Virus record (IMG/VR): IMGVR_UViG_3300033148_001129
Coordinates: 1-21,642 of that record
Strand: one strand, 5' to 3'
Origin: a virus
Length of the DNA: 21,642 nt
The translations under genes were made by a program, and so were the position numbers. Shown one piece after another: positions 3,037 through 12,362 of the stretch (the stretch's first letter is position 1; every line of letters starts with the position of its first letter). Below the pieces are notes generated by a model that searched no databases, was not told where the DNA came from, and saw only the letters and a program-made list of their open reading frames with translations.

Positions 3037-4107
3037 ATGGCTGATTCTGGTGGACACTGGAAGAATTTAGCTGAAGCACAGAAGCTTACACAGTCCCTGA
3101 AGATTCCGGGCGTCTTCGAAGAGGACATAAAAAGAAACAACCCTTTAGAAAGAATGCCTGTCGCTCAGGCAGCCCGAAGCGGACGCAAGATAGAGTGGTT
3201 AAGGGAGAAAACTACCACTGAGGACTCGGTTACTGAGGTAGATATCGGTGAGCAACTCTCCTGGGCTGAGGACGTGGAGTATGAAGAGAAGGAGGCGGAG
3301 CTCAAGAGGGTCTATATTCAGCGCAAACTTGACCACTTTGTTGAAGGCATCTACGGCACATATAATAACTATGAGGCTAGGATGCTGCTTGAGTCCGAGA
3401 AAGGTCTAAAGAGGCGACTTGGTGCAAGAATCGTCTATGCCGACTCCGCCTACACCAGCTCCAAGCAGTTTGATGGAATTCATGCTCTGGCTTATGAGCA
3501 TGGCGCACCTTATACTGCTGGCTCCAGTAATGACCCGAAGAACATCGACAACGGAGATGCTGGTCTATCACTAGCATTCCTGAGACTCATGGTAGACGAG
3601 ATGAAGCATGGCGTAGATGAAATTCTGGCACCTTACGAAATCATCCGCAGAATGGACGCAGCCTATCAGGAGAAAGGCTTTGCTGGTCTCGCATACGACA
3701 CTGCCGGCACTATGGCTTTCTTGGCTATGGGCTACAACGAACTGGGCAAGAGGGTCTTGTTCTGGGATGGTATTCCTATCATCCGTACTGACTATCTGGT
3801 AGCCGAGGATGACGATACTGGCACCGGTTCTGATGGTGCTGCCAGATCACTATACTCCAGCGGTGATAAGGTCTATAGCATCTTCGGTCTCAAGTACGGC
3901 AACGTGATGAACATGGAACCTGGTATCACCTTTGCATATGGCGGTACTGAAGGTCAGGGCGACCTCTACAAGCTGGTGAGATTCCCTGAACTGGAAGACT
4001 ACGATGCTGGCGGTATAAGGCTGGTTACCTACGGAGCCTTGCTGCTGGGGTCGAGCCTGTGCCTCGGAAGAATCTTCGACATTCAAGATGCTGCGATAAC
4101 TGTCTAA
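3037..4107 (+). CDS. Major capsid protein, HK97-fold type (inferred)
   Basis: A 356-residue protein directly after the scaffold gene, with the strong site AAAGGAGGAAA before its ATG. The sequence follows the pattern of HK97-type capsid proteins: an N-terminal arm (about 1-50), then a charged E-loop-like stretch (RKIEWLREKTTTEDSVTEVD, about residues 50-70), a glutamate-rich segment, a long 'spine' helix region around RKLDHFVEGIYGTYNNYEARMLL, and a beta-rich C-terminal part with an insertion rich in Asp/Gly (about 255-275). It forms the icosahedral head shell. Scaffold before it and a small beta protein after it support the call. No catalytic motif exists to confirm it, and the subfamily is not identified. 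Confidence 0.82.
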   Translation: MADSGGHWKNLAEAQKLTQSLKIPGVFEEDIKRNNPLERMPVAQAARSGRKIEWLREKTTTEDSVTEVDIGEQLSWAEDVEYEEKEAELKRVYIQRKLDHFVEGIYGTYNNYEARMLLESEKGLKRRLGARIVYADSAYTSSKQFDGIHALAYEHGAPYTAGSSNDPKNIDNGDAGLSLAFLRLMVDEMKHGVDEILAPYEIIRRMDAAYQEKGFAGLAYDTAGTMAFLAMGYNELGKRVLFWDGIPIIRTDYLVAEDDDTGTGSDGAARSLYSSGDKVYSIFGLKYGNVMNMEPGITFAYGGTEGQGDLYKLVRFPELEDYDAGGIRLVTYGALLLGSSLCLGRIFDIQDAAITV

Positions 4108-4154
4108 ATCCAGTACGCAGGAGAATAAAACTTTAAGTAAAGGAGAGGTAACAA

Positions 4155-4994
4155 ATGGCTGTAAAATACTATAACCAGAATATACGCTTCTACAATGGGC
4201 GGTCTATAGTCCTCCCGCCTTTTGTAGAAAATCAGGTAGGATTCGGGAATCTTAGCCACCCTAACATAGCTGTACCTGATTCTTCCCAGTCTTACCCACT
4301 TGGCACAAAGTTCATCGACGGCGATAAGGTGTTTAAGTACTGCGCTTTCAAAGCTACTGTTAATCCTGACCTTGGTGCTAAGAATGGTCAACCTCAGGCG
4401 GTTGCCTATGTAACGGTAGCGGATAATACTGCGCAGTATGCCACCTCCCTGGTAGTTGATGTCGGGAGCAGTGATGGTATATCCGGAGATGGAGAGATAG
4501 CAGAGAATGCCCTAGCTGGGGGAGAAATTCTCATATTCGATGCTAGTGCATCTACAGGCAGCATCAAGCGGACTATTGTATCTAATACTGCTGTAGACTC
4601 CGGCGGCGGCGAGTGCACTATTACTGTCATTGACCCTATTCCTGTAGCTCTAGTTGGGGATACTGACCATGCTGAGATTATGGCAAGCCCATATAGTTAT
4701 GTGAATACTGAAAACGAGAAGCCTGTAGTAGGCGTACCTGTACTCGCATACACTGATGGGCAGTATGGCTGGGTACAGACCTGGGGACCTTCCTGGGTTT
4801 CTCCTCAGGCAGAGGTCGGTGTTGGCAGTAATAACCGCATCTGTGTGTTCAGGCATGACGGCAGTATCGATGAGCTGGACTACTCTGACAGCTACAATAG
4901 TCAGGGGCAGATTGCTGGTTATGTTATGTCTATTCCACAGGCAGGTGCAGGCTCGCAGGCTGCTCCGTTCATATTCCTGACAATCAGCAACTAA
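4155..4994 (+). CDS. Head-associated beta-rich protein, likely capsid decoration
   Basis: A 279-residue protein after the capsid gene, preceded by AAAGGAGAGG. It is almost wholly predicted beta structure, has no signal peptide or membrane segment, and contains the GQYGWVQTWGP motif (about residues 202-212) that I associate with small phage head proteins of the DUF2190-like kind. A central Gly/Ser/Asp-rich segment (about 100-165) looks like an extra beta domain. The probable job is to bind and stabilise the outside of the capsid shell or form part of the head completion layer. The family assignment is from memory of the motif and the gene order; a tail tube role is less likely at this position. 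Confidence 0.6.
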   Translation: MAVKYYNQNIRFYNGRSIVLPPFVENQVGFGNLSHPNIAVPDSSQSYPLGTKFIDGDKVFKYCAFKATVNPDLGAKNGQPQAVAYVTVADNTAQYATSLVVDVGSSDGISGDGEIAENALAGGEILIFDASASTGSIKRTIVSNTAVDSGGGECTITVIDPIPVALVGDTDHAEIMASPYSYVNTENEKPVVGVPVLAYTDGQYGWVQTWGPSWVSPQAEVGVGSNNRICVFRHDGSIDELDYSDSYNSQGQIAGYVMSIPQAGAGSQAAPFIFLTISN

Positions 4995-5019
4995 GCAACC
5001 GTAGCAAGGAGGGTAACAT

Positions 5020-5154
5020 ATGCCTGATAGAAAGTATAAGTGCCCAAACAAGAGCTGCCCAGTGAACTTCCAAATTCATACCGGCAGTACGAAGAAATGC
5101 CCAAAGTGCGGAGCTAAGCTTGTTCCTGTTAAGTCAGAGCCTGAATCTGGATAA
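5020..5154 (+). CDS. Small zinc-ribbon protein (44 aa)
   Basis: The ATG follows AAGGAGGG by six bases, and the gene starts 25 bases after the previous stop. The 44-residue product carries two cysteine pairs, C8-x4-C13 and C27-x2-C30 (CPKCG), the usual knuckles of a zinc ribbon, followed by a short Lys/Pro/Glu tail. The fold probably binds one zinc ion and may contact nucleic acid or another protein. Zinc-ribbon peptides of this size are common between head genes of phages, but their function is not known to me. The good ribosome binding site and the Cys spacing make a real gene likely. Confidence 0.7.
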   Translation: MPDRKYKCPNKSCPVNFQIHTGSTKKCPKCGAKLVPVKSEPESG

Positions 5155-5165
5155 CAAATCAATCA

Positions 5166-5203
5166 TTGAGGAGGGAGAAGGGTTTGTTCCTCTCCCTCCT
5201 TAA
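5166..5203 (+). terminator. Stem-loop after the capsid block (terminator-like, no U-run)
   Basis: AGGAGGGAGA (5169-5178) pairs perfectly with TCTCCCTCCT (5191-5200), with a 12-base loop; a G-T pair and two A-T pairs extend the base of the stem. No T-run follows, so it may be a weak terminator, a transcript-stabilising hairpin, or a structure that hides a Shine-Dalgarno-like sequence. It divides the head genes from the next block. Confidence 0.4.
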
Positions 5204-5223
5204 ATGAGTAAAGGGGGTATATC

Positions 5224-5403
5224 ATGCCTTTGGCTGTTGAGAACCTGAACAAAAACTCATCTATAGAGCAAATCCGAGAAGCCATATCTGAGACTATCAG
5301 ATACCTGATGAAGAATGAGGGCAAGACTCAGAAGGAGGCTGCTGGTCAGGCGTACGGTATGGCAAGAGAGAGAACGGGGAAGGACTTAGACTTCGGGAAA
5401 TAG
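5224..5403 (+). CDS. Small helical phage protein (59 aa)
   Basis: The ATG follows AAAGGGGGTATATC. The 59-residue product starts MPL and ends with a helical basic segment, KTQKEAAGQAYGMARERTGK. This resembles a widespread family of short phage and bacterial proteins with the pattern MPLxxGxS...I..NI...G....QAVAIA...AR, which occur in phage structural regions without a defined role. It lies between the stem-loop and the first surface protein. Recognition is by pattern only; the gene itself is well supported by its start site and by filling the gap exactly. Confidence 0.65.
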   Translation: MPLAVENLNKNSSIEQIREAISETIRYLMKNEGKTQKEAAGQAYGMARERTGKDLDFGK

Positions 5404-5427
5404 TTAAACCGAAAAAAGGAGGTTTAG
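5404..5427 (+). promoter_or_regulatory. Inverted repeat around a ribosome binding site
   Basis: TTAAACC (5404-5410) can pair with GGTTTAG (5421-5427) across a 10-base A-rich loop, with one G-U pair. The Shine-Dalgarno AGGAGG (5417-5422) of the next gene lies half in the loop and half in the stem. It could reduce or tune initiation, but the stem is short and may be chance. Confidence 0.2.
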
Positions 5428-5428
5428 A

Positions 5429-5926
5429 ATGACCAAGGTTGCTATATCTACCCATAGGTTTATAGGAGCATCTACCGACACTAAGGATACAGGAGTCCCT
5501 ATCGGCTCCACTTGGTACGAGTATGATACAGGAAAACTCTATATTACATATGACGGAGACAACTGGGCAGTTAAAGGAGACGGCGGCAGGGCTGGAGACA
5601 ATGCTTTGTTCTCTACCGCTACTGGCGCTGCTGCTATCAGTAAGACCCTAGCTCCTGGGGCTAAGTTCCGGCTGCTCAGAATTGAACTTCATCTATCAGC
5701 AGCTCCAACTACATCCGAGAACTTCACCGTTGACCTTGATGCAGGTGATGGCGGTGCATATGACGTTAACTTGCACACTGAGGACTTATCTGCCGGTAGC
5801 ATAACTGATTTACTTCTGACTTTTGGCGAAGGTTATGAGTATGAGGCAGACGACGAAATCGACATAGCGTACGACAATACTGACGAAGGTACATATGGAC
5901 TCAGAATAGAGTACGAGCTGATTTAG
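5429..5926 (+). CDS. Beta-rich virion surface protein (165 aa)
   Basis: Preceded by AAAAAAGGAGG. The N-terminal part (about residues 22-48) carries the pattern PIGSTWYEYDTGKLYITYDG, typical of phage fibre and minor structural proteins ('GSxWxExDTGxxYxxYDGxxW'). The rest is predicted to be a beta-sandwich (alternating hydrophobic strands ending in YGLRIEYEL) with no catalytic motif. No signal peptide or membrane segment. The likely role is as a head fibre, decoration or appendage subunit. It stands next to a lectin-like gene, which suggests a host-contact or capsid-surface block. Specific function unknown. Confidence 0.55.
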   Translation: MTKVAISTHRFIGASTDTKDTGVPIGSTWYEYDTGKLYITYDGDNWAVKGDGGRAGDNALFSTATGAAAISKTLAPGAKFRLLRIELHLSAAPTTSENFTVDLDAGDGGAYDVNLHTEDLSAGSITDLLLTFGEGYEYEADDEIDIAYDNTDEGTYGLRIEYELI

Positions 5927-5934
5927 GAAGTACC

Positions 5935-6714
5935 ATGACTACAAAGATTCTAAGAAACGGATACGGAATTAGTAGGCTAGACCCAAAAGCCTGTATAGAT
6001 AAAGCCACAAACTTGAATGCTCGAAGTTCTCTTAGCATGGTAGCAGAATCTAGAAGAAATGGAGTTCTAGCAGGCGATATTATTACCAGCGGGCTGGTAC
6101 TGCATCTTCCTCTGTGGATGCTTAAGGGTAGCTCCATCGTATCCAGAGACATAAACAGTCATACCTGCTCAGTAACGGGAGCTTTGTGGAGTCCGCAGGG
6201 AAGGTACTTTGACGGGGTAAATGACTTCGTAGGATTGCCTGCATCCGCATCACTAGATGTAGCCGGGACTGACCAGGCTTTCACCTTCGAGGTTTGGGTG
6301 TACTTTGCTGATTACAGTCCGGACACTTATAGCATCCCTTTGGGACAATCAGACCTTTTCATCGGTAGAAAGAAAGCCAACGAGAAAGGTACGTTCTCCA
6401 TCTATCATGCAGCGGGTGATAGCATATATCTTGAATCGAATCAGTCTCTTTCTAATGAGCAATGGTATCATCTGACTGGGACACGGGACACAAGTGCAGA
6501 CTGCCGAATCTACGTCAACGGCTCGCTGGACTGCACACCAATCAACTACGCCAAAGACCCTACCGGTGGAGAAAGGCCCAAATACCTCGGCAGTGAAGGC
6601 GGGACTGATTACCGAACAAAGGGCTATATTGGCGAGGCTAGAGTATATAGCTTAGCATTAACCCCTCAGGAAGTCCAGCATAACTACTTGGCTACCAAGT
6701 GGAGGTATCGTTAA
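5935..6714 (+). CDS. LamG/concanavalin A-like lectin domain protein
   Basis: A 259-residue protein. Residues about 52-256 show the laminin G-like jelly roll pattern (Laminin_G_3/ConA-like): GLVLHLPL at the start, YFDGVNDFVGLP near 91-102, the FTFEVWVYF strand, EQWYHLTGTRD, the RIYVNGSLDCTP strand, and the closing YIGEARVYSLALTPQEVQHNY. In phages this fold sits in capsid-surface fibres or receptor-binding appendages and binds carbohydrate or protein. The N-terminal 50 residues are basic and may attach to the virion. It starts eight bases after the previous gene, with AGGAAG before the ATG. The lectin-like fold is well supported; its ligand is unknown. Confidence 0.8.
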   Translation: MTTKILRNGYGISRLDPKACIDKATNLNARSSLSMVAESRRNGVLAGDIITSGLVLHLPLWMLKGSSIVSRDINSHTCSVTGALWSPQGRYFDGVNDFVGLPASASLDVAGTDQAFTFEVWVYFADYSPDTYSIPLGQSDLFIGRKKANEKGTFSIYHAAGDSIYLESNQSLSNEQWYHLTGTRDTSADCRIYVNGSLDCTPINYAKDPTGGERPKYLGSEGGTDYRTKGYIGEARVYSLALTPQEVQHNYLATKWRYR

Positions 6715-6938
6715 TGAAATATCGAGTAAGACTGGACTTGAGTTTTGCCAGTGAGAGTGATGCGCAGACATTGATGGCCTGTGCCAGAGGATTGAGTGGG
6801 CAGGCAGTCAGCATCAATGAGGGGCAGCCAAATGAGGAAATACCGCGACTGGACTTTCATAAGTGCTACCATGATGAGTCTGTGCCTAAGCCATGTGAAG
6901 TCATTGAGGAACTGAGGATTAAAAAGTTAAAGGAGTAG
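6714..6938 (+). CDS. Small phage protein of unknown function (74 aa)
   Basis: The ATG at 6714 overlaps the TAA of the lectin gene (TAATG), with GGAGG eight bases upstream (6701-6705); an earlier in-frame start at 6699 has no binding site and is rejected. The 74-residue product begins with a strand-helix-strand pattern (KYRVRLDLSFASESDAQTLM, then GQAVSIN) and has a charged tail ending in IEELRIKKLKE. No motif I can name. Tight coupling between an appendage gene and a tail hub gene suggests a virion or assembly role. Confidence 0.65.
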   Translation: MKYRVRLDLSFASESDAQTLMACARGLSGQAVSINEGQPNEEIPRLDFHKCYHDESVPKPCEVIEELRIKKLKE

Positions 6939-6941
6939 ATT

Positions 6942-7970
6942 GTGAGGACTATCCATGCCGACCTGCTTGCAGCTCAGAATGCTGCCAGTAATACCCCCTA
7001 CATACATCTAGTATTCACCAGCAAGGATGGGGGAACTACCTATGACTATTCATCCGACAAGGCTGGTCGGCGAATACTGTCCATAGACCATCAAGAGGAG
7101 CCTTACAACGAGTATGCATCTATTATCCTCAGAAACAACGACAGAACTATACCCAACCTGAAGGGCTACTGGACTGAGATAGGCTATGGCTACATCTGTG
7201 CTGGAGATACTCCTCGCTACTCCCAAACTTCCCGCCTCTGGGTGAAGCATCAGCAGGACATATCTGCTCAGGGTAAGATAGTTACTCTACTGGAGCTGGA
7301 AGGTATGTGGGCTAAGGCTCGTGAGATGCCTATCAGAATAGGTAATCCTCCATTCTACATGGACGAGAATAATACCCTATCTAACTCCACTCCCTACAGC
7401 ATTATAAGTACTATTGCTGGTGAGATTGGTATGACTGTAGCTGCACTAGAAGAGGACGACGGCATCATGGGAAGTCTTAATATTCCTAATATGCTAATAA
7501 ATATGCAGCCGTTTGAGTCAGCTGCTGGTGTACTTTACCGTCTTATAAGCATCACTAAATCTTATCTGCGTTCCAAGAGCGGTCTTGAGTTTGAGGTTAA
7601 ATATCCTCAAGCATCTGACCCTGTGGATATTACTTACTACTCCAATCAGTCTCCTTACTTCTACGAATACATGGAGCGTAGGAATGTGCTGATTCCTAAT
7701 CATGTCTACTGCTTTGCTAATGAAGGCGATGATGGTCTTTACAGTAACATCATAGTTGGGGAGGCTAGTAGTGCTGATGAGATTGCTCTCTATGATGATA
7801 TTGTAAAGATAATTGTCGCAGCTAGCATCACTAATCAGGCCGATGCAGACAACCGAGCAGCAGCTGTTCTGGCTAGGGCTGAGGCAGAAGTACTGGCTGG
7901 CAGAATGTATGCGCCGCATGACTGCAGGCTAGAACTGTACGACAGAATACAAATCGATGATAGGCGATAG
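6942..7970 (+). CDS. Tail hub/baseplate-type protein, apparently lacking its C-terminus
   Basis: Starts at GTG with AAAGGAG 9 bases before. The 342 residues resemble phage tail-tip or baseplate hub proteins: an N-terminal beta domain (IHLVFTSKDGGTTYDYS), SIIxTIAGEIG-type helix, the segment PFESAAGVLYRLISITKSYL, then NHVYCFANEG...YSNIIVGEASS and a helix of ADADNRAAAVLARAEAEVL before APHDCRLELYDRIQIDD. In related hub proteins this last segment is normally followed by a strand pair ending in a 'Y-x-M-x-V-x-LGD' motif. Here a TAG comes first and that motif sits in the next gene, in the same frame. The hub role is inferred from pattern and position. Confidence 0.55.
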   Translation: MRTIHADLLAAQNAASNTPYIHLVFTSKDGGTTYDYSSDKAGRRILSIDHQEEPYNEYASIILRNNDRTIPNLKGYWTEIGYGYICAGDTPRYSQTSRLWVKHQQDISAQGKIVTLLELEGMWAKAREMPIRIGNPPFYMDENNTLSNSTPYSIISTIAGEIGMTVAALEEDDGIMGSLNIPNMLINMQPFESAAGVLYRLISITKSYLRSKSGLEFEVKYPQASDPVDITYYSNQSPYFYEYMERRNVLIPNHVYCFANEGDDGLYSNIIVGEASSADEIALYDDIVKIIVAASITNQADADNRAAAVLARAEAEVLAGRMYAPHDCRLELYDRIQIDDRR

Positions 7971-7979
7971 GAGACTATA

Positions 7980-9077
7980 GTGGCACTCGAGTTTATCTGC
8001 TCTGCTAATGACAGAGATGTTATCCAGCCTGGGAGTCCAGGCAGCTGGACAAGTGCCCATGATGGCGCAGGTAATCGTTTCTTGGACTGGAGCAACTATA
8101 TTAGCACTCAGTACAAGGTAACTACCTTTGGTGATTATCAGCTTGTAAGGGCATGGCTGGACTTCGACCTGACAGACCTGCCATCTGGGTGGACTAGCAT
8201 CTATAATGTAGTGAAGCTAAAACTATATATTGAGGACTGGTATGACTATACTCATGGCAGTACTGGAGATTTAGTAGTAGTCCAAGGAGTCCAGCATCTT
8301 CCAGTCCAAGTGAGCGACTACGGAGCACAAGTATCATATGTTACACCTGGAGGTACTTTTGATGCTGATGATTTCTCTGGCGCAGGCTGGTACTACATAA
8401 CTCTTAATGATACTGGCAAAGGGTGGATTACAGCAGGTCAAACTTTCAAACTCTGCCTCAGGTCTAGAGGCGATGTCAACGACAGCCCTGTATTAGGCGA
8501 CTTCATGCACAGGCCTTTTATATGGTCTAGGGATGCTGACATTAACAAGGCTGCTAGGCTAGTGTTTGAGACTGTATATCCTATAGACGGAGACTCTCTC
8601 ACTAGAGTAACTGGTATTCGCCACATCTACCGTCCTGGACTATTCAGAATGCAGGTGAGTCTTGGGGATGTCAGCAACACTGTTGAGATAGCAGAGCATA
8701 AGGTAAGGAAGGAACTGGAGATACCAGAACAGCAGACACCTGAACCAAAAGTTCCGCCAGAATGGCCTGAGCCAGCTCCGCCAGCTCCGAAACCTGTACC
8801 CAAGCCTGAGCCACCCAGCTACTGGGGTGTAGGTCCTGTCAGTGAGATACCTGGCATAGGCGAGTATAGAGAAAAAGCACTACGGAGAGAACAAGAGCCT
8901 GAATATGAGCAGATTCCTGGACTGCCTCCTTCTATGCGCAGGGAGGTAGAGAAGCCTTCCTTGTGGAGTAGGATAACTCCCTGGAAGGAGGAGTCCGGAG
9001 AGACTTTTGGCAGCGAGATAGCTGAAAGGTTTGAAGTGTTAAGGAAACTGTTTGGAGGTCTGTTTGGCGGGAAGTAA
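7980..9077 (+). CDS. DNRLRE/CBM-like domain protein with hub C-terminal motif and Pro-rich tail
   Basis: Starts at GTG with AGGAG six bases upstream, in the same frame as the preceding hub gene and separated from it only by TAG and three codons. Residues about 1-199 are a beta-rich module like DNRLRE or carbohydrate-binding domains (VRAWLDFDLTDLP, VKLKLYIEDW, GWYYITLNDTGKGWI, FKLCLRSRGD). Residues about 207-236 (TRVTGIRHIYRPGLFRMQVS then LGD) look like the missing end of the hub protein. Residues about 249-281 are a Pro/Glu/Lys linker. The tail (about 282-365) is charged and ends FGGLFGGK. It probably forms a tail-tip accessory or receptor-facing component. Domain names are tentative. Confidence 0.5.
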   Translation: MALEFICSANDRDVIQPGSPGSWTSAHDGAGNRFLDWSNYISTQYKVTTFGDYQLVRAWLDFDLTDLPSGWTSIYNVVKLKLYIEDWYDYTHGSTGDLVVVQGVQHLPVQVSDYGAQVSYVTPGGTFDADDFSGAGWYYITLNDTGKGWITAGQTFKLCLRSRGDVNDSPVLGDFMHRPFIWSRDADINKAARLVFETVYPIDGDSLTRVTGIRHIYRPGLFRMQVSLGDVSNTVEIAEHKVRKELEIPEQQTPEPKVPPEWPEPAPPAPKPVPKPEPPSYWGVGPVSEIPGIGEYREKALRREQEPEYEQIPGLPPSMRREVEKPSLWSRITPWKEESGETFGSEIAERFEVLRKLFGGLFGGK

Positions 9078-9097
9078 CATAGTTGGAGGATACATCA

Positions 9098-9370
9098 GTG
9101 GGACGTGAGAAGACCGGAAGACCAATAGACACTCCAATAGGCAGTGGGCTAGCTGTTACTGGGCAGGACTTTGAGCAGAGAAAAGCAGTATTCCCGCCCA
9201 GCTTCATAGACGAGTTAGTACTAAAAGGAGGTGATGAGTACGTGAAGGCAGATGACTTAAAAGTTCTCATAAGTGCTATCGTCGAGCGCTTAGAGCCTGT
9301 GCTGAGAAATATAGAAACTCATCTTGCACTAGGTAGCGACGAAGAACTAGGAAAGGAGGAATCGCAGTAA
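9098..9370 (+). CDS. Small phage protein with internal start site (90 aa)
   Basis: GTG at 9098 follows GGAGGA by seven bases; an in-frame TTG at 9083 overlaps that binding site and is rejected. The product has a basic N-terminus (GREKTGRPIDTPIG) and a helical acidic C-terminal half (DDLKVLISAIVERLEPVLRN). The stop TAA overlaps the ATG of the next gene. Inside it, a near-perfect Shine-Dalgarno precedes a second in-frame GTG at 9242, which would give a 42-residue C-terminal form. No signal peptide or membrane segment. Function unknown; position in the tail region suggests a virion or assembly factor. Confidence 0.55.
   Translation: MGREKTGRPIDTPIGSGLAVTGQDFEQRKAVFPPSFIDELVLKGGDEYVKADDLKVLISAIVERLEPVLRNIETHLALGSDEELGKEESQ
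9224..9244 (+). promoter_or_regulatory. Internal ribosome binding site and GTG start
   Basis: AAAGGAGGTGAT (9224-9235) is fully complementary to the 3' end of bacterial 16S rRNA, and GTG follows at 9242-9244 in the same frame as the host gene, ten bases after GGAGG. It is among the best-matched binding sites in the window. It encodes LKGGDEY in the longer protein. Confidence 0.45.
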
Positions 9371-9930
9371 TGGAGATATTTGGATGGGGAAGAAAGAACA
9401 CGGCGGATGTCAACTCTAGCGGACAGTTGCTTACAGCGGCTATGTCCTTTGCTGAAGACCATGAGGCAGCGATAGATGGTGAGGCATATACTATGGACAT
9501 AGATGCTGTGGGAGTAAACGGCTCAGAGCATCTCTGTGTTATCAAGAACAATCACAGCACCAAGAACCTTATCATCACCTCGATACTACTATGGGTGGCA
9601 ACCTTTAAGGATACCACTTTCCTTGAGGCGAGGCTGAACGAGACCTTTACCTATGCTGCTGGCGGAACTGCCGTAGTACCTGCGAACCTGAAGTCAGGGA
9701 AGGTAGGCGGAGCACAAGGAGACTTCTATACCATAGCATCTCCTGGTACTGACATAACTACCTTTGGCGGAACAGCAGTCATAGCTGGCAGATGCATCTT
9801 CACCACTACACCTTACAAGTGGACAAAGACAAGCAACTGGATAGTGCCTCCCAATCATGTGTTCTCGCTTTTTAATGACTCCAATGATAATACTTACTAT
9901 GGCTATATCTCATTCTACTATCACGAATAG
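9370..9930 (+). CDS. Beta-rich virion protein (186 aa), function unknown
   Basis: The ATG overlaps the previous stop (TAATG) and is preceded by AAAGGAGGAATCGC. The 186-residue product is soluble and mostly beta: strands include EHLCVIKNN, LIITSILLWVATF and the closing YYGYISFYYHE. No enzymatic motif is visible. The pattern resembles phage proteins encoded after the tail hub, perhaps fibres or appendage connectors. It forms a coupled pair with the next gene, which has a similar size and beta content. Function is not assigned. Confidence 0.6.
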   Translation: MEIFGWGRKNTADVNSSGQLLTAAMSFAEDHEAAIDGEAYTMDIDAVGVNGSEHLCVIKNNHSTKNLIITSILLWVATFKDTTFLEARLNETFTYAAGGTAVVPANLKSGKVGGAQGDFYTIASPGTDITTFGGTAVIAGRCIFTTTPYKWTKTSNWIVPPNHVFSLFNDSNDNTYYGYISFYYHE

Positions 9931-9941
9931 GAAGTTAACTG

Positions 9942-10406
9942 ATGTGGGCTGTTAAGTTAGTAGGCGCACTAGAAAAGGTTGTCGAGCAGTTTGCCACACC
10001 TTTTGGCTATGCTCTGTCTGTGCTCAACTATAGGCAGAAGTATGGTATGTGGAGGTCTGTTAGCTGGTCTGGCACACAGGTGGCAAAGACTGCTATTGCT
10101 ACTCCTGTCAGTGGAGGCTCTATAGAGGTAACTGACATATTCTTCATGGCTAATAAGGTATCTGGTGGAACAGTAACGATTACCTTTGAGGATGGAAGTC
10201 ATACAGAGACGCTGGCAACACTTATCCTAACTAATGAAGCTGTAAGAATGAGCCATCAAGTGCAGGGCAGAATGCAAGGCTGGCGAGACGCAGCACTCTA
10301 CTACACAGTAGCTGGTGCTAACTCTACGGGGGCTATAACTGTAGGCTATGTCAAGCACAGTAAGGCGCACTCGGAGGACTACAGCGTCTGGAATGGAAGG
10401 AGATAA
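9942..10406 (+). CDS. Beta-rich virion protein (154 aa), function unknown
   Basis: Starts eleven bases after the previous stop, with AGGAAG before the ATG. The N-terminal 35 residues form an amphipathic helix (AVKLVGALEKVVEQFATPFG) followed by beta strands (SIEVTDIFFMANK, VTITFEDGS, TGAITVGYVKHSK). The end of the gene (GRR) encodes the AAGGAG binding site of the next gene. No catalytic motif. An appendage or tail-completion role is inferred from neighbours only. Confidence 0.6.
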   Translation: MWAVKLVGALEKVVEQFATPFGYALSVLNYRQKYGMWRSVSWSGTQVAKTAIATPVSGGSIEVTDIFFMANKVSGGTVTITFEDGSHTETLATLILTNEAVRMSHQVQGRMQGWRDAALYYTVAGANSTGAITVGYVKHSKAHSEDYSVWNGRR

Positions 10407-10409
10407 AAT

Positions 10410-10526
10410 ATGGCAACTAGAGGAGTACCCAAGAGAGATGGCAGTGGCAGGGGCGTGAGGGCTAATAGAGGCAGAGGCGGCTGTGCTACTACGAGGAGGA
10501 TAGGCAGGGGCAGCAACAGGAGGTAA
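10410..10526 (+). CDS. Arg/Gly-rich 38-aa peptide, DUF5320-like
   Basis: ATG follows AAGGAGATAAAAT. The 38-residue product is extremely basic, with about a dozen arginines and the core KRDGSGRGVRANRGRGGC. The DGSGRG/RGRGGC pattern recalls short Gly-rich proteins of the DUF5320 type (xxDGTGPxGxGxxTGRGxGxC) and small peptides found in environmental phages. It may bind nucleic acid or be an unstructured virion component. Its last codons (AGG AGG) double as the ribosome binding site of the next gene. Being short, it could be doubted, but the start signal and exact fit between neighbours support it. Confidence 0.6.
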   Translation: MATRGVPKRDGSGRGVRANRGRGGCATTRRIGRGSNRR

Positions 10527-10529
10527 TTT

Positions 10530-12362
10530 ATGAGCAAGACAAGATTGCAAATGCGGGCTGACATTAAGACAGACATCAGGACTACAGATGAGATAACTGA
10601 TGCTGAGCTGAACAGGGCTATTGAGAGGGCGGTATCTGACCTTAGCCGCTTCCTGCCTAGGGAGAAGACCTACGAGGAAAGCCTACAGTTTGATGTAGTA
10701 GACGAGTCAGTTATCATGCCTGCTGACACCAGCTTAGATGCCATCGTCGCTGACGAGGACATATCGTCCTTTGAGGCTGGCAGCACCTGTACTATTGGCG
10801 GACAGCCTGACGTACCCAGACCACTTGTAGTAACCCTGACTGATAGCGATAACTCTATAACTGGAATGACTATTGATATTGTAGGTACTGATGAAGATGA
10901 CATAGCATTATCGGAGACATTCAGCTACATCAAAGGTGATAGCAAGACCATCACAGGAAAGAAGTACTTCAAGAATGTCTACTCAGTTACTGCCACGCAG
11001 ATAGCCGGTGCTGGTGCGTCAGATGTACTGGATGTAGGCTATGGTGCTTATACCACTGTCTGGGTCAGAATGGCTAACAGACCTATCAAGTGGGGGAGTG
11101 AGAAGAATGTTACTGACGCAGACTCTAATACTCTCACCCGTAATACTGACTTCTACATCGACTACATAGGAGGCAAGATTAAGGCTATAAGCGGCGGAGA
11201 TATAGCAGCCTCAGATACTGTAACTATCTCATACACCAGAGGGCAGTTGTGGCTGGATATATCTGACCTAGCTGACATCATTAGAGTTGACAGAGTTGAG
11301 TATCCTGTAGGCAATATACCTCAGTCTTTTGTTCAGCATGATATCTGGGGAAGCATACTGTCAATATCTGGCGGCGCAGAGCAGGAAGAGCAGAGCAGTA
11401 TGGCAAAGAACAATCATGTTAGAGTATATTATTCTGCCGAGCATCAGCCTCCTACTGAGTACTCTCCTGGCTCTGTACCTGGGTTCTTGGAGAACACTGT
11501 TATTCTTGCTGCTAGCGCTTATGCTCTGTTCACTTATGCTATGAAGCAGGAGATAGCTGCTGAGACTAATCTAACTACTGCAGTTACCAGACTGACTAGT
11601 GCTAGCACCGCTCATACCAACCTGGATACGGCACTAACCAATATCAAGAAGTACCTTGACAATAACAGTGATGCAGATGCTGCCGGTATACTACAGGACA
11701 TCACTGATGATATTGATAGTCTCAGAACTGCCATAGCTACCGCCGCAGATGCTGCCAACGCCTATCTGGATTCAGTAGATACTGACATCACCAATGCTGA
11801 TGGTGTGAGGGCTGATTACATTGATACCACTGACTATGTTGATGGCGGCAGTGAACCTGATATTAAGACCTATTTAGAATCAGGCGATGCTCTACTAAAC
11901 ACTGTGGCAGTAGGTGGTGAGAGTACGGAGGTATCAGAGTCCTACCGTAGATATGCTGATACTGTTAAGTCTGCTCTGGTAGGCTCATTTGAGAATGACA
12001 GAGCTATGTACTTACAAAATGCTACCGCCAGAACCAATGCTGCTCTGGCATATGTACAGGAGGCAGCACAAAGGCTCAGTAATGTCCGTAGCTATATTGA
12101 GCAGTCTGCTGGATATGCTACCATATCTAATCTGTTTGCTAGAGAAGCAGAGGCTAGACTAAGCAAAATCAATGCTCATCTCCGAGCTGCCAGCACTTAT
12201 GTCGAGGCTGCTGCTGGCTGTATGACTATGGCAGACAGGTTCAGAACTGAGGCTATAGAGCGCAGGAATGAGGCGTGGAGTATATGGCGCGATAGAACAC
12301 AGTACATAGGCGACTACACTCAGAGCTCAGCAAAACAACTACCGAGATATAGCAATGCTTAA
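10530..12362 (+). CDS. Neck/adaptor-like virion protein with long helical tail (610 aa)
   Basis: AGGAGG precedes the ATG by six bases. Residues 1-60 resemble phage head-tail adaptor or neck proteins (LQMRADIKTDIRTTDEITDA, then ELNRAIERAVSDLSRFLPRE). Residues about 95-175 and 205-235 are beta modules like those inserted in phage structural proteins. From about 320 to the end the protein is helical and alanine-rich, with a conserved-looking block YLESGDALLNTVAVGG and the ending FRTEAIERRNEAWSIWRDRT, which I recognise as a recurring, unnamed C-terminal module of environmental phages. The length is far above a simple adaptor (about 100-200 residues), so this is a fusion. It probably joins head and tail, or forms a neck appendage. 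Confidence 0.6.
   Translation: MSKTRLQMRADIKTDIRTTDEITDAELNRAIERAVSDLSRFLPREKTYEESLQFDVVDESVIMPADTSLDAIVADEDISSFEAGSTCTIGGQPDVPRPLVVTLTDSDNSITGMTIDIVGTDEDDIALSETFSYIKGDSKTITGKKYFKNVYSVTATQIAGAGASDVLDVGYGAYTTVWVRMANRPIKWGSEKNVTDADSNTLTRNTDFYIDYIGGKIKAISGGDIAASDTVTISYTRGQLWLDISDLADIIRVDRVEYPVGNIPQSFVQHDIWGSILSISGGAEQEEQSSMAKNNHVRVYYSAEHQPPTEYSPGSVPGFLENTVILAASAYALFTYAMKQEIAAETNLTTAVTRLTSASTAHTNLDTALTNIKKYLDNNSDADAAGILQDITDDIDSLRTAIATAADAANAYLDSVDTDITNADGVRADYIDTTDYVDGGSEPDIKTYLESGDALLNTVAVGGESTEVSESYRRYADTVKSALVGSFENDRAMYLQNATARTNAALAYVQEAAQRLSNVRSYIEQSAGYATISNLFAREAEARLSKINAHLRAASTYVEAAAGCMTMADRFRTEAIERRNEAWSIWRDRTQYIGDYTQSSAKQLPRYSNA

Follow-up and report, generated by a model that had tools for sequence, protein, structure and literature searches.

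A conserved gene break in the last domain of a phage tail hub coincides with the border of an exchangeable module

Why is the gene for a phage tail hub interrupted by a stop codon just ahead of the strands that complete its last domain? The question is raised by a 21.6-kb virus record (the window, that is, the whole stretch of 21,642 nucleotides analysed), in which the head genes are clustered on the + strand and the replication genes lie on the - strand. A preliminary description had reported a 342-aa hub-like protein stopping at a TAG codon and a second gene in the same frame only three codons on, and both observations hold: gene 1 ends in ...LELYDRIQIDDRR-TAG, and the codons GAG ACT ATA separate this stop from the in-frame GTG of gene 2. 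The elements of the locus are listed below in window coordinates.

6942..7970, + strand: gene 1, tail hub body; 342 aa, GTG start; the last hub beta-hairpin is missing; homologues in viral loci
7929..7967, + strand: LELYDRIQIDDRR, last hub strand of gene 1; end point common to all split homologues (alignment)
7968..7970, + strand: TAG stop codon of gene 1, an ordinary terminator; homologues use TAA, TAG or TGA
7969..7973, + strand: AGGAG, Shine-Dalgarno-like, for gene 2; overlaps the TAG, with the GTG 6 bases on
7980..9077, + strand: gene 2; 365 aa, GTG at 7980; module, hub-closing hairpin and proline-rich tail
7980..8576, + strand: exchangeable module, DNRLRE-like beta-rich domain; gene 2 residues 1-199 (sub-threshold match to NF033679, alignment)
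8577..8678, + strand: YPIDGDSLTRVTGIRHIYRPGLFRMQVSLGDVSN, hub-closing beta-hairpin; gene 2 residues 200-233, counterpart of residues 366-386 of the L066 model
8679..9074, + strand: proline-rich tail, with the end KPSLWSRITPWKEESGETFGSEIAERF...GGLFGGK; the conserved end (about 8952-9074) is present in most gene 2 proteins and in the unsplit L066

Searches with tblastn in 50,697 phage records found no cultivated relative of gene 1 or gene 2, two scans of 84,980 GTDB genomes found no bacterial or archaeal one, and gene 1 gave no usable match in Pfam or PHROGs. Relatives were present in viral metagenome contigs: a single-sequence search recovered 11, a profile built on eight proteins 46 and a broader one 57, the three sets overlapping. 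The gene order is conserved and runs from the major capsid protein through variable genes to the hub and gene 2, and then through further variable genes to a 610-aa protein. No match to a tape-measure protein was accepted in this arrangement, and neither a tape-measure nor a tail-tube gene was recognised in the stretch that separates the capsid genes from those for replication (window positions 3037-12362), even though the hub belongs to the tail type.

The nature of the two products became apparent from two lineages in which the hub is unsplit and free of the module, represented by L049 (516 aa) and L066 (558 aa). In L066, which is 48% identical to the window gene 1, a single frame runs from the hub body to the hairpin without a stop (...VELYDKAAFVDNRGGAVTYPSNSLTRVGGLHHIYQPGKYLLEIYLGG), and the ends that flank the module elsewhere are joined by a few residues (...VDNRGGAVTYPSNSLTRVGG...). 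Genes 1 and 2 together equal L066, so that in the split phages the hub is made by two proteins. An AlphaFold model of L066 (residues 1-425, 38 sequences) had a pLDDT of 82.9 and a pTM of 0.82; the alignment included, for folding only, rows in which the six in-frame loci were read through the stop. The hairpin strands (366-376 and 379-386) were modelled at a pLDDT of about 90 and the linker, which is the module site elsewhere, at 39-66. Comparison by Foldseek and VIA-align matched the model to the hub of the S. coelicolor injection system (9gtr_q, Z 26.8), to 6j0m_A (Z 25.3), to Mu (Z 22.9 for 9ki1_G and 21.5 for 1wru, Mu gp44) and to T4 gp27 (1k28_D, Z 18.6; model residues 6..388, with the hairpin within the aligned span), and a search of BFVD returned hundreds of phage tail proteins. 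The VIA-align spans, of about 300-340 aligned residues, end at 387-415, past the hairpin. The gp27-like hub fold was thus found on the unsplit homologue L066. Two alignments with separate rows for hairpin fragments or gene 2 ends misplaced these rows onto the N-terminal hub hairpin and were not used as evidence. The two hub barrels are known to be alike, and the misplacement hints at this likeness.

The strand pair that the preliminary description had assigned to gene 2 is therefore the closing element of a hub: residues 200-233 match both L066 and L049, and the structural matches run through the pair, so the outcome envisaged beforehand, that it would lack a structural counterpart in hub C-termini, did not arise. 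The motif (R)VSSIRHIYRPGxYRMxVxLGD was found in all loci that extend as far as the gene 2 end, and the hairpin is the most conserved part of this gene. At L075:7038-8700 the hub is spread over three ORFs, namely the body, a module ending at an in-frame TAA, and the hairpin in an ORF of its own. A conserved tail, SLWxxITPWKEExGETFGGE...GGLFK, corresponds to window positions 8952-9074 and to most gene 2 ends; it is doubled in L066 and L020.

The position of the break is fixed. In 38/38 split relatives gene 1 ends 12-15 residues past the E of an ELYD motif, and in all 38 the stop codon precedes the module, so that the module is not an insertion within one polypeptide. Among the 34 loci with a complete gene 2, gene 1 stops at TAA in 21, at TAG in seven and at TGA in six, and gene 2 lies in frame 0 relative to gene 1 in six (the window, L011, L020, L077, L079 and L082), in +1 in four and in +2 in 24, the out-of-frame junctions being mostly TAATG or ATGA overlaps. 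In a 17-base stretch whose end lies 3 bases ahead of the start of gene 2, AGG or GGAG was present at 36/37 junctions, compared to 29% of control positions inside hub genes. This Shine-Dalgarno sequence is usually encoded by the last codons of gene 1 itself (D-S-R-G, GAT AGT AGA GGN); in the window, AGGAG has two bases in common with the TAG. As judged from these junctions, re-initiation would explain all loci and readthrough six at most. In a phylogenetic tree the unsplit L049 and L066 were placed apart inside a mainly split tree, corresponding to two changes, under midpoint rooting and with both unsplit hubs on long branches. As L066 and L049 are unsplit, the split is dispensable for a working hub, and any advantage that it may bring is hypothetical. 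In L083, near 6950-7010, the hub stops early and out of register (HDCRGLRYYLVG, then a stop), probably because of a frameshift.

The module was then considered. It is 150-490 residues long in all split hubs that could be read to their end, it lies between a hub strand and the hub hairpin, and it is absent from L066 and L049, which marks it as a foreign domain in the hub. The proposal that a domain entered the hub and the gene was then split fits this anatomy well. The preliminary description had placed a DNRLRE/CBM-like domain between the hub parts; the position is right, and the DNRLRE label is weak in the window, where NF033679 (DNRLRE) gives an E value of 0.093 and 12.8 bits. For this family E values of 4.8e-5, 0.0029 and 6.1e-6 were obtained in L024, L030 and L075, and the scores in L024 (23.5 bits) and L075 (26.4 bits), like that of the window, are under the curated cut-off of 34 bits. 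The window module is about 30% identical overall, in alignment, to those of L024 and L030, and AlphaFold modelled gene 2 of the window poorly (five sequences, pLDDT 47); it may be called DNRLRE-like, weakly so. Elsewhere, the L047 module carries GLUG repeats and a CBM5/12 domain, both over the Pfam cut-off, some modules have fibronectin-III-like linkers under the cut-off, others were labelled propeller-like from repeated sequence judged by eye, and many match no family. No enzyme family exceeded its curated cut-off in the modules scanned. Family resemblance suggests that the modules bind sugars, and some could be enzymes.

Modules are exchanged between close relatives. Among 79 pairs with a hub identity of at least 70%, BLASTP gave no match below E 0.01 for the modules of 59, and the hairpins of the pairs remained alike. 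In L076/L077 the hubs are 97% and the hairpins 93% identical and the modules are unrelated; L011/L012 and L020/L024, each with a hub identity of 90%, are further examples. At the DNA level, identity in five pairs is lost 0-28 bases from the gene 1 stop and regained at most about 40 bases from the hairpin motif. In L076/L077 (96.8% DNA identity in the hub) it is lost 28 bases before the stop and regained exactly at the motif, and in L020/L024 it is lost at the stop. Combined, these results indicate that the split is the rule throughout this family of phages and that the inserted domain behaves as a cassette open to exchange, neither of which was visible from the window taken singly. Two loci show other arrangements. 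At L032:4616-7134 gene 2 is present as a tandem of two cassettes, which differ in their modules and both include a hub-closing hairpin. The second cassette begins one base past the end of the first and is cut off by the end of the contig. At L051:9411-10706 a separate downstream gene encodes a domain that shares 29% identity with the window gene 2 over 186 residues, and modules may therefore move between virion genes.

These observations bear on several explanations of the locus. The lone in-frame TAG with its in-frame continuation resembles, when viewed alone, a nonsense mutation in a decaying or mis-sequenced hub gene. The relatives refute this: the break point is identical in 38 of them, with three stop codons and three frames. 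The TAG is also present in an independent, near-identical contig that differs by dozens of bases (L002; 99.5-99.7% identity over most of the overlap and 97.4% in one end piece). It is therefore not a base-calling error, and damage of either kind has practically no chance of being the cause. A further possibility is that readthrough of the TAG, which the preliminary description had considered for some virions, or another form of recoding fuses the hub to the module in some or all virions. In the six loci with gene 2 in frame, the window among them, occasional readthrough would indeed yield a fusion. However, gene 1 homologues end at the equivalent place whichever stop they use, an outcome named beforehand as one that would refute the idea, and the downstream frame is in phase in just 6/34 loci, leaving 28/34 out of frame, which is not the signature expected of readthrough; moreover, gene 2 is equipped with a start and a Shine-Dalgarno sequence of its own. 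The final 105 bases of gene 1 contain no canonical in-frame slippery heptamer in any of the 38 loci. TAG ends 9/27 genes of the window, in agreement with the earlier view that it is a normal stop here, and ARAGORN finds no tRNA gene in the window and hence no suppressor, which a host could still supply. Readthrough and frameshifting were consequently rejected, and we regard a fused product as very improbable.

Two further readings accept the break and differ in what gene 2 does. Its product might be a separate tail protein, a fibre or an adhesin, that keeps the hairpin as a docking motif outside the assembled hub domain. In the split phages gene 2 does encode its own polypeptide from its own start, and the linkage to the hub is seen only in the unsplit homologues. 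In these, however, the hairpin is continuous with the hub, is folded into it and lies within the span aligned to solved hubs, and no part of gene 2 is better conserved; we consider a free-standing tail protein unlikely. Alternatively, the hub would be split in the same way and the modules would mainly cut surface polymers or serve assembly instead of binding receptors. Insertions in the Brussowvirus Tal hub carry lysin domains (PMC9437275), and the many modules that match no family leave room for such functions. The matches that do exist are of the binding type (CBM5/12 and GLUG in L047, DNRLRE in several), and the scans for enzyme families were negative, so a chiefly cutting or assembly role is rather doubtful.

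The explanation that we consider probable is that the split of the hub is conserved and that its second subunit serves to plug an adhesion module, itself exchangeable, into the last hub domain. The tail hub would consist of two polypeptides synthesised in succession from a single message, an order that, like the closing of the last hub domain by the hairpin of the second subunit, has the support of the anatomy. The hub body would come from gene 1 and extend as far as the penultimate strand of the last hub domain. Translation of gene 2 would restart at or next to the gene 1 stop through the Shine-Dalgarno sequence in the last codons of gene 1. In the gene 2 product the adhesion module would come first, with the closing beta-hairpin of the last hub domain behind it; during assembly this hairpin would join the hub body in trans, anchoring the module at the tail tip, from where it would project and bind sugars or other components of the cell surface and might thereby contribute to host range. 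Since the gene junction and the conserved hairpin form the borders of the module, recombination would swap whole modules (DNRLRE-like, GLUG repeats with CBM5/12, propeller-like, fibronectin-III-containing and others) and leave the hub core untouched. A bolder extension, which we put forward tentatively as possible, is that gene 2 is an interchangeable plug-in, such that every hairpin-bearing product could complete, in trans, every hub body found in the family. Phages with two copies, such as L032, would therefore build mixed tips with more than one binding specificity.

Parts of this arrangement have precedents. In lambda (gpL and gpJ) and RcGTA (gp13 and gp15), a tail tip of four hub domains is spread over two proteins, and a beta-sandwich (483-569) is inserted in HDIV of lambda gpJ between beta24 and beta25 (PMC10721106). 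As here, one hub is formed from two polypeptides and a hub domain is divided between both, and range arithmetic (gpJ 591 to model 389) indicates that the gpJ insertion appears to lie at or near the module site. However, the lambda and RcGTA break falls between HDI and HDII, in an HDII insertion, whereas here it falls in the last hub domain, before the last hairpin, after about 350 residues and right at the module; and, unlike in lambda and RcGTA, close relatives differ in the module. In the 'evolved Tal' and 'evolved Dit' of phages of Gram-positive hosts, carbohydrate-binding or lysin domains are found in a gp27-like hub or in Dit, the Brussowvirus Tal insertion lying between sub-domains 3 and 4 (PMC9437275). 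The available parts of these sources describe one polypeptide and mention no gene break (PMC7291167, PMC9437275), whereas here a stop precedes the module. T4 gp27, Mu gp44, and the injection-system hub and VgrG resemble the reconstituted hub in fold (Z 18.6 to 26.8), but are single chains without an exchangeable module and are 7-13% identical to it in sequence. Hub insertions and split hubs are thus already known, and their combination at this site, in nearly every family member, appears to be the new element; no description of a hub split at this site with a family-wide exchangeable module was found in the literature searched, which comprised papers accessible without subscription.

In these uncultivated tailed phages, the grip of the tail tip would thus be exchangeable while the core is unchanged, the hub being divided inside a domain at a place that is fixed throughout the family and coincides with the border of the variable module. 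If the hairpin docks in trans, these phages provide a natural setting in which to test how tail-tip binding changes with the conserved core intact, and whether one virion can carry several modules. For annotation, an in-frame stop inside a hub gene may be a conserved state and not recoding or damage.

Two other genes of the window were noted. Just upstream of the hub, positions 5935-6714 encode a Laminin-G-like (concanavalin-type) protein (Pfam E 5.8e-24), possibly a second adhesin. The gene that follows the major capsid protein (4155-4994) is 91% identical to its counterpart in L044, yet the two hubs are just 56% identical; with other relatives its identity is 24-39% or 83%, and this pattern suggests a recent transfer of the gene.
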